Virus record (IMG/VR): IMGVR_UViG_3300042562_001598
Location: 215,149-279,148 of that record
Reading direction: 5' to 3' (one strand)
DNA: 64,000 bases
From: a virus
Position 1 is the stretch's first letter. Every line of letters starts with the position of its first letter. Below are positions 45,502 through 47,655 of this stretch, one piece after another. Made by a program: the position numbers and the translations under genes. The notes below the pieces were generated by a model, which saw only the letters and a list, made by a program, of their open reading frames with translations, did not search any database and had not been told where the DNA came from.

Positions 45502-46769
45502 TTAAACACTAAACACTTTTTCTACAACATGATTGTAAAAGTCTTTTCTGGCTTCAGTTACTTTTGTTAAGTCATAACGGTCTTTTACAGTTTCGTATAA
45601 TCTTTCACCCATATCGGTAATCAATCCAGGGTTTTCAACTAATTTTTTTATACTTTTTGACCAATCGCTATGGTTTCTTGTTTCCGGAACTAAGATAGCA
45701 TTTCCATCTGTAAAATTACCATTAGTTAAACAATGTTTCAAATCAATTGTGTAAGGACCGATTTCAGAAGCGATTAACGCTTTTTTGTAGAAGCCAGCTT
45801 CAATAACTTTCAATTGAGATTTCATTCTGTTAAAGATATGGTTTTTAATCGGTGCCAAAGATATGTCAAATTTTGAATAATTCATAGCATAACTTGTAAC
45901 TGGTTTTGTCCATACTCTTGAATAAGGTAATGTTTCATCAGTAACATAATTTGTGTCCTTAAAATTCAATAAGTGTTTCTTGTAATCGTCACCAACAATT
46001 TTATAATTATTTGTGAATAATTCCTCATATCTTGCCCACACCGTTTCGTGAGGTAAAATATCTCTTCTTTTTTCTTCACGAGTTTCAGGATTAATTTCCG
46101 TTACAGTTCCTCTTGTATCAAAACCACAAAGAACATATTGGATTTTATCGTTAATCTGTGAATTTTTGTTGACAAATCCTTCCAACAACATCAAATCGTG
46201 TAAGTGAGAACTTCCACCTAACCAACCAACTCTGATTCTATCAGATGGTAAAGTTTTTTCCTTGAACTGTGGTTCATTTGGGTTAATAGCATTTGGAAAT
46301 ACAATTACATTTTTATTAACCTTACGGATTTCATCAGCAAAAATTTCAGTAGTTGTTGTAACATAACTTGCTTCTCTCAAGTTAGCAACAATCTTTTCGT
46401 GGATTTTATGTTGAACAATAATTGAGTGAATTGGGTGTTCCTTAGTTGGTAACCAATAATCGTCAATATCAAATATAACCACAATACCCATTGATTTTAA
46501 TTGTCTAATCAATAAAGGTGTTGTTTCGTAAGTATTACCGATATTTCTATGAACATGGACGATTTGGTATTTTGACCAATAAGACATATCATTTATTCTC
46601 GGTTCATAGTCAATATCCACATGGAAGTCATCTGGATACATATTTTGTAACATTGTGTGAGGGTCAATAGAGCGAAATTTACCTAACCTACCCCTGAGCG
46701 GTCAGACGCGAGTACTAAAACTCTTATCTTTTCACGACCATTCAGGGGCTGAATTGTTGTTTGTTGCAT
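45502..46769 (-). CDS. GT-B glycosyltransferase, frame-broken near the N-terminus
   Basis: Reading from the ATG at 46769 gives MQQTTIQPLNGREKIRVLVL then ASDRSGVG, followed at once by TAG (46685-46683). Five bases on, the frame continues as GKFRSIDPHT into a 383-codon open frame whose first ATG is at 46653. Joined, this is a normal GT-B start (beta strand plus Gly-rich loop). The break is a tandem duplication of TAGGT (plus strand 46681-46690). The rest is intact (VVIFDIDDYW, IRVGWLGGSSHLHD, NRMKSQLKVIEAGFYKKALI). It is a fresh mutation, an assembly error or a bypass; see findings. Initiation at 46653 would lose the first strand of the fold. Confidence 0.75.
46681..46690 (-). repeat. 5-bp tandem duplication breaking the glycosyltransferase frame
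   Basis: ACCTAACCTA on the plus strand reads TAGGTTAGGT in gene sense. Removal of one copy restores an uninterrupted frame. A GGT codon lies on each side of the stop. Confidence 0.9.
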
Positions 46770-47655
46770 ACTTGTTTATTATTAGTATTAGTTTATCATT
46801 ATTAGACTTGAGTTCATTCTCCCAAATCACTTCTAAATTATAACCATAACTTTTGACTAAATCAAGTTTTTTTTTATCATAGTCCCACAACTCCCAAGCA
46901 TATTTATTTTTTTTAGCATTAAAATAATCTTTTGAATATTTGATTGGATTACAATGCCAATAATCTCCAAAGTATTCAATTATCAAATTGAGTGAAGGTA
47001 TATAGATATCACATATTTTACTATCAACTCTATAGGATTGTATTGCCTCTACCCCCATTTCAGTTAGTAATTCTATTATTTCTTTTTCTTTTTTTGAGGT
47101 TATACCCGAATTTAATTTTCCTTTTCTTTGATTTTGTTTCATAAGTTCAGACATTGTATCTCTATCCCAGATATTATTATCCCAATTAGACCTAGCAATA
47201 CCCCTACTCATTTGTCGGTATTTTTCTTGTTTCATGTGATTATCGTAACCAGTGTATTTATTAGTTCTACTCTCCGATATTTGTTTAATAGTACTTTCTT
47301 TATGTTTTTTACCGTAAAATGGGTTGTTCTCACCTAAATTACATTTACCCATACACTTTTTACAATTACTATTGTCTCGTAATTTATTAAAGTGATTTCT
47401 ACACGCAATAGTACTTTGTTTAGAATAAGTCTTAATTTCTTCCTTACACATTGGACATAATCTTGCAACATAAAAATTTTCCCCCTCTTTTACAATATCT
47501 AAAGATTTACATCTATCTCGTTGTCTCACTAAATTGTGTTTATGCAAAATAGCTAAAATAGTATGTTTTGGGACACCCGTCATTTTAGATATTATAATAC
47601 TTCCATTTCCCTTTTTATATTCAGATATGATTTTTTCTTCAATTTCTATATTCAT
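46732..47655 (-). CDS. EDxHD/VSR-like homing endonuclease with NUMOD3-like motif
   Basis: 307 residues. A helix-turn-helix-like N-terminus is followed by Cys-pair segments (CPMCKEE, CKKCMGKC), a NUMOD3-like NPFYGKKHKESTIKQISES, and a nuclease core KICDIYIPSLNLIIEYFGDY followed by WHCNP. The core matches that of the endonuclease behind the capsid gene. The last 12 codons are read over the start of the downstream glycosyltransferase in another frame (38-nt overlap). It has its own AT dyad. Its natural target is probably the intron-less glycosyltransferase start. Confidence 0.82.
   Translation of the reverse strand: MNIEIEEKIISEYKKGNGSIIISKMTGVPKHTILAILHKHNLVRQRDRCKSLDIVKEGENFYVARLCPMCKEEIKTYSKQSTIACRNHFNKLRDNSNCKKCMGKCNLGENNPFYGKKHKESTIKQISESRTNKYTGYDNHMKQEKYRQMSRGIARSNWDNNIWDRDTMSELMKQNQRKGKLNSGITSKKEKEIIELLTEMGVEAIQSYRVDSKICDIYIPSLNLIIEYFGDYWHCNPIKYSKDYFNAKKNKYAWELWDYDKKKLDLVKSYGYNLEVIWENELKSNNDKLILIINKYATNNNSAPEWS

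Follow-up and report, generated by a model that had tools for sequence, protein, structure and literature searches.

The window analysed here, a 64,000-nucleotide stretch that lies in a virus record of 282,192 bp, contains a glycosyltransferase gene that appears to be broken close to its start, and the question is whether this break is a lesion or is crossed in translation. On the minus strand, the gene reads from the ATG at 46769 through 28 codons (ending in SGVG) to a TAG at 46685-46683; the letters of the junction are GTA GGT TA GGT AAA TTT, with TAGGT in tandem. The first-pass annotation gave these coordinates and this description correctly, including the matched GGT codons and the resumption of the frame as GKFRSIDPHT, and it correctly placed a homing endonuclease gene over the start (the ORF 47655-46732 covers the ATG at 46769). 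It proposed a bypass similar to that of T4 gene 60, with a -1 shift as another option, and held a fresh lesion or an assembly error to be equally possible. The features of the locus are the following.

46732..47655, minus strand: putative homing endonuclease ORF, 307 aa, with a NUMOD3 motif and matches to PHROG HNH/homing endonuclease families
46683..46769, minus strand: ORF1, 28 codons MQQTTIQPLNGREKIRVLVLASDRSGVG and the TAG stop (26-29 codons across all 36 interrupted loci)
46686..46761, minus strand: conserved 76-nt stem-loop element that ends at the take-off codon (model R1)
46736..46751, minus strand: 5' arm of the stem, CAGCCCCTGAATGGTC, within the final codons of the endonuclease
46689..46703, minus strand: 3' arm of the stem, GACCGCTCAGGGGTA, which codes for DRSGV
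46686..46688, minus strand: putative take-off codon GGT (Gly)
46683..46685, minus strand: TAG stop, predicted to be in the A site at take-off; its TA (46685-46684) is the 2-nt gap
46681..46683, minus strand: putative landing codon GGT (Gly)
45502..46683, minus strand: ORF2 (GKFRSIDPHT...), with the rest of the glycosyltransferase in a frame that stays open up to the stop, with purifying selection among relatives and a GT-B fold predicted for an uninterrupted relative

The best explanation of this arrangement, to which we assign a probability of roughly 0.85 on the strength of the sequence comparisons described below, appears to be a programmed translational bypass (a short 'stop-hop') that is carried by a mobile endonuclease cassette. 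When only the downstream part of the gene was used as the query, a protein search retrieved 80 relatives, most with an unbroken GVGKFRS and several with a stop, a short gap and GKFRS. Relatives of the endonuclease and further scans enlarged the set to 36 distinct interrupted loci in phage contigs (the window included) and 85 uninterrupted ones; two of the scans used patterns containing the stop, so that the proportions of interrupted and uninterrupted genes in this set are biased. Searches blind to the junction were the first to retrieve sixteen of the interrupted loci (L019, L024, L026, L031, L052, L061, L063, L067, L073, L087, L089, L090, L091, L093, L095 and L296). The interrupted loci come from more than 30 metagenomes, the 35 loci other than the window representing 34 metagenome number series as judged by contig names. 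Cultured phages yielded only distant glycosyltransferases (less than 60% identity) and partial, distant relatives of the endonuclease, and none of the seven distant relatives found in bacterial genomes and MAGs has such a break. The matches L222, L229, L230 and L231 and those from a variable-gap scan were due to chance, known loci excepted, and the search pattern TGACCGNNNNGGGNGTNGGTTRR was of no use, its register being off by one base. The same putative hop is present in a distant glycosyltransferase gene with 43% identity to that of the window (L114:2862-5271, minus strand; open frame to 777 codons), so that the element also occurs outside the close relatives.

The break is located at the same site in all 36 interrupted loci, a recurrence well above what chance would give, after a GVG (or GVS) motif, and in 35 of these, a stop directly follows the take-off codon (TGA in 17, TAA in 16 and TAG in 2). 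The gaps are 3 nt long in 24 loci, 8 nt in 5, 2 nt in 3, 9 nt in 2, and 10 and 41 nt in one locus each, so that landing would occur in all three frames; the gaps of 3, 9 and 10 nt are beyond the reach of a -1 shift. The duplication of TAGGT noted in the first-pass annotation is true of the window, but elsewhere the gap varies in both length and sequence, and nothing in it is conserved apart from the stop. Phase variation at a tandem repeat was considered and rejected as the other gaps are not TAGGT-like tandem copies, save for the same TA gap in L187. Comparison of L195 with the uninterrupted L301 reveals six inserted nucleotides at the junction, with dissimilar DNA upstream.

The take-off codon is GGT or GGC in 35 loci; the exception is L095, where the motif is GVS and AGC is present on both sides of a 2-nt gap. 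The first two bases of the take-off and landing codons are the same in all 36 loci and the whole codon in 14; GGY is matched with GGY, or AGC with AGC, in 30, and the six exceptions combine a GGY take-off with a GGA landing (five of the 24 loci in the 3-nt class, and L296), which is imperfect for one tRNA. At landing, GGY outnumbers GGR 29:6, compared with 41:40 for the same codon in uninterrupted genes (p=0.002), an excess that is expected if the take-off tRNA must re-pair. The only locus with a codon other than a stop (GCT) directly after the apparent take-off is L019, where positions 1309-1352 read GGT GCT TAA and the 41-nt gap contains a G+C-rich hairpin ending in AAAAGGT; this could mean a long hop like that of T4 or the decay of this copy. 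A gap hairpin of the A-site stem-loop type is found only there, the gaps of 2-10 nt in the other 35 loci being too short for one. No KKYK was detected among the last 20 residues ahead of take-off in any of the loci, nor in the listed ORF1 peptides, and folding of the 70 nt that follow the landing codon is not stronger than in the uninterrupted genes (p=0.12).

The interrupted loci further share a long stem-loop directly 5' of the take-off codon, which is missing from the first-pass annotation. The folding energy of the 76 nt up to the take-off codon ranges from -22.8 to -35.4 kcal/mol in all 36 interrupted loci versus -3.4 to -18.2 kcal/mol in the 85 uninterrupted genes, none of which contains the stem-loop. 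Synonymous recoding (60 per locus, 36 loci) never reached the stability of the real sequences, and thus, the stem is not explained by the encoded peptide. In a model-fitted alignment of 35 sequences, which favours structure by construction, two-sided changes are present in 10 pairs and 42 cells, versus 12.8 cells after shuffling, and 83% of the cells are paired versus 30-50% when slid; the plain ungapped alignment A2 agrees in direction. One stem pair is found as AU, UA, CG, GC, UG and GU and is not broken in any sequence, and the last paired base falls 1-4 nt short of the end of that codon at which take-off would occur. RNAalifold reported no structure for the raw alignment A1 because shifted rows misalign. 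Scanning with model R1 gave one strong forward-strand match per record in 33 records and no convincing second match that would indicate elements in other genes; the only matchless record is the short L019 contig. A protein-bound DNA palindrome is disfavoured by the G-U pairs and by the greater stability of the mRNA strand in 29 of the 36 loci, so that RNA is the favoured form.

The product of the interrupted gene, as judged by modelling, is a GT-B glycosyltransferase: the predicted structure of an uninterrupted relative (mean pLDDT 82.8) adopts the GT-B fold and matches solved glycosyltransferases. The junction falls between the strand 5-10 and the helix 16-32 of this model, so that the first GT-B strand would come from ORF1. 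The downstream frames are open and under purifying selection, with dN/dS values in close pairs of 0.044 (L067/L073), 0.062 (L052/L061) and 0.076 (L124/L191), the last in a pair in which no endonuclease was detected. No second copy of the glycosyltransferase gene was found in the record of the window or in 22 related records.

A mechanism can be tentatively outlined from these features. The ribosome would translate the 28 codons until GGT occupies the P site and a stop codon the A site. The long stem-loop, unwound by the passing ribosome, would then re-fold at the mRNA exit side and pull the mRNA, a motor role that is suggested by analogy with T4 gene 60. The peptidyl-tRNA-Gly, presumably the tRNA involved, would quit the first Gly codon, slide across the gap (2 nt in the window) and re-pair with the second one, and translation would restart at AAA, to yield a seamless ...SGVGKFRS... 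protein. At the DNA level, the region of the GVGKFRS codons in uninterrupted glycosyltransferase genes is probably where the neighbouring endonuclease cuts. The stop and gap inserted in its own copy would protect that copy, and through the hop the invaded gene would stay functional.

Several other explanations account for parts of the data. Readthrough of the stop by a near-cognate or suppressor tRNA, with a merely stimulatory stem, would suffice for 26 of the 36 loci, those with 3-nt gaps and the two with 9-nt gaps, which are readable in frame. However, the gaps of 2, 8, 10 and 41 nt shift the frame, yet come with the same stem and with conserved protein on both sides, and the 85 uninterrupted homologues all pass from GVG to KFRS without additional residues; readthrough is quite unlikely, though within the 3-nt class the case against it consists only of these homologues and of the analogy with the members that change frame. 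An altered genetic code was rejected, as TAA, TAG and TGA all serve to end long ORFs in the window and all three are also found at the hop sites. Removal of the gap at the RNA level, by splicing or editing, or at the DNA level would give a seamless protein whatever the gap length, and the repeated GG(N) could mark the ends, but such removal has no need of the conserved stop and nothing else in the gap is conserved; furthermore, we know of no phage system that removes 5-12 nt, which makes this a very unlikely solution.

A split gene, in which ORF2 is translated by re-initiation and the pieces assemble, or ORF1 is just a leader, gains some plausibility from an ATG 10 codons into ORF2 in the window (the start, at 46653, of a 383-codon ORF) and in 14 or so relatives, and from a strong stem close to the stop that could aid coupling. 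Nevertheless, no ATG, GTG or TTG follows the landing codon for 165 codons in L026 and 213 codons in L052, several other loci lack an ATG for nearly 200 codons or more, and GKFRSxDPH is conserved ahead of any start. With the first strand of the fold encoded by ORF1 in addition, re-initiation is highly improbable. As for a dead or decaying gene or an assembly error, that is, a fresh 5-bp duplication with no rescue, the tandem TAGGT of the window is in its favour, and a single record could not exclude it. For the family as a whole, this reading is refuted by the recurrence of the break in 36 loci from many metagenomes, with varied gaps and all three stops, by the downstream dN/dS of 0.04-0.08, by the compensatory evolution of the stem and by the lack of a second gene copy; what the first-pass annotation had considered an even choice is now barely credible, whereas its comparison with T4 gene 60 is strongly supported by the 35 relatives with the same break. 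Because readthrough, frameshifting and re-initiation each cover a part of the set and sliding between matched codons covers all of it, bypassing is the preferred explanation, and it is on this ground that we infer the hop itself.

The upstream ORF, by its sequence, is a homing endonuclease of the NUMOD3/HNH type, without a PDB relative detectable by sequence. The first-pass annotation had suggested comparing relatives with and without this gene, and the comparison fits a bypass linked to it: an endonuclease ORF lies directly upstream in 25 of the 36 interrupted loci (L067 being counted on a 70-aa ORF only) versus 7 of the 85 uninterrupted ones (p=2e-11). In the window, the 5' arm of the stem lies within the last codons of the endonuclease, which also overlap the glycosyltransferase start, so that nuclease and putative hop are physically joined. 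Four interrupted loci retain only a short C-terminal remnant of the endonuclease (L019, L061, L215 and L218), and no recognisable endonuclease was found in seven (L124, with 673 nt available upstream, L133, L174, L187, L191, L195 and L296); thus, the hop seemingly outlives the nuclease. A TTGACTT...TATAAT-like stretch (about 46870-46830 in the window) is kept in the remnants of L061, L215 and L218 and in the upstream DNA of L296, as if a promoter inside the 3' end of the endonuclease gene were being retained.

Interrupted genes are scattered over the glycosyltransferase tree, which implies 25 changes, at least 19 of them forced by well-supported branches. Furthermore, the identity between L133 and L191 is 97-100% as far as the stop and 70-90% past it, which puts the right-hand end of the transferred segment at the gap. 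As far as can be judged from such comparisons, the hop is spreading horizontally, independent of the host gene. Seven uninterrupted genes have an upstream endonuclease and no hop element (full-length in L023, L065, L069, L255 and L276; remnants in L051 and L259), which indicates that the hop is not obligatory for the residence of the endonuclease; in two of these, the motif is GVS (L065) or GCG (L023), perhaps another route of escape from cleavage. Distant relatives of the endonuclease (L096-L107; 26-44% identity) are accompanied by neither a glycosyltransferase match nor an R1 element.

The closest known counterpart is T4 gene 60, with which these loci share matched Gly take-off and landing codons and a stop directly after take-off (PMC3014915, PMC5009743, PMC11194080), a 5' stem-loop behind the ribosome, whose re-folding in T4 is thought to pull the mRNA and start the sliding (PMC5009743, PMC11194080), and the existence of relatives that lack both the insert and the endonuclease. 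The adjacent homing endonuclease gene is a further likeness to the gene 60/mobA pair, one of gene arrangement. In contrast, gene 60 encodes a topoisomerase, unrelated to the glycosyltransferase, its gap is 50 nt rather than 2-10 nt (once 41), its take-off codon is GGA rather than GGY, and the gap hairpin (L019 excepted), the KKYK peptide and a fold after landing are not found in the present loci, which comprise dozens of variants against the one of gene 60. Synthetic 'stop-hops' and +5 and +6 hops were described by Weiss et al. in 1987, as far as that work is summarised in PMC5009743; on that description, the 2-nt gap of the window corresponds to a +5 hop and the commonest class, with matched codons around the stop, to a +6 hop, the difference being that those constructs were artificial whereas the hop proposed here is natural and conserved, with a covarying upstream stem. 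The byp elements of Magnusiomyces capitatus mitochondria (81 sites in 12 genes, described as independent of mRNA context; PMC5009743) are likewise numerous short inserts skipped in translation, with landing codons that are not always a perfect match, but they are mitochondrial and occupy many genes, whereas here a single site in one gene family comes with a strong RNA context.

Altogether, it is quite likely that these loci represent a natural family of mobile short-range stop-hops in environmental phages, in which a 5' stem-loop, with neither a gap hairpin nor a KKYK-type peptide, moves the ribosome by 5 to 13 nt (once 44) into any frame, and in which the hop module persists after the loss of the endonuclease by which it was spread. 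To our knowledge, efficient natural bypassing in bacteria and phages so far rests essentially on T4 gene 60. According to a 2016 review, shorter counterparts with matched codons have long been presumed, and a natural in-frame stop hop was not known (PMC5009743). Within the open-licence literature searched, this would be the first family of short ribosome hops known from nature, spread apparently by a homing endonuclease gene. Its dozens of natural variants, with their different gap lengths, stop codons, stem sequences and degrees of codon match, provide the comparative set that is needed to define the minimal requirements for a ribosome to depart from a reading frame and re-enter it, and to ask whether the re-folding of the stem is the motor. 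The family further suggests that pairing an endonuclease with a bypass is a strategy that recurs, and that annotations may list such genes as broken.
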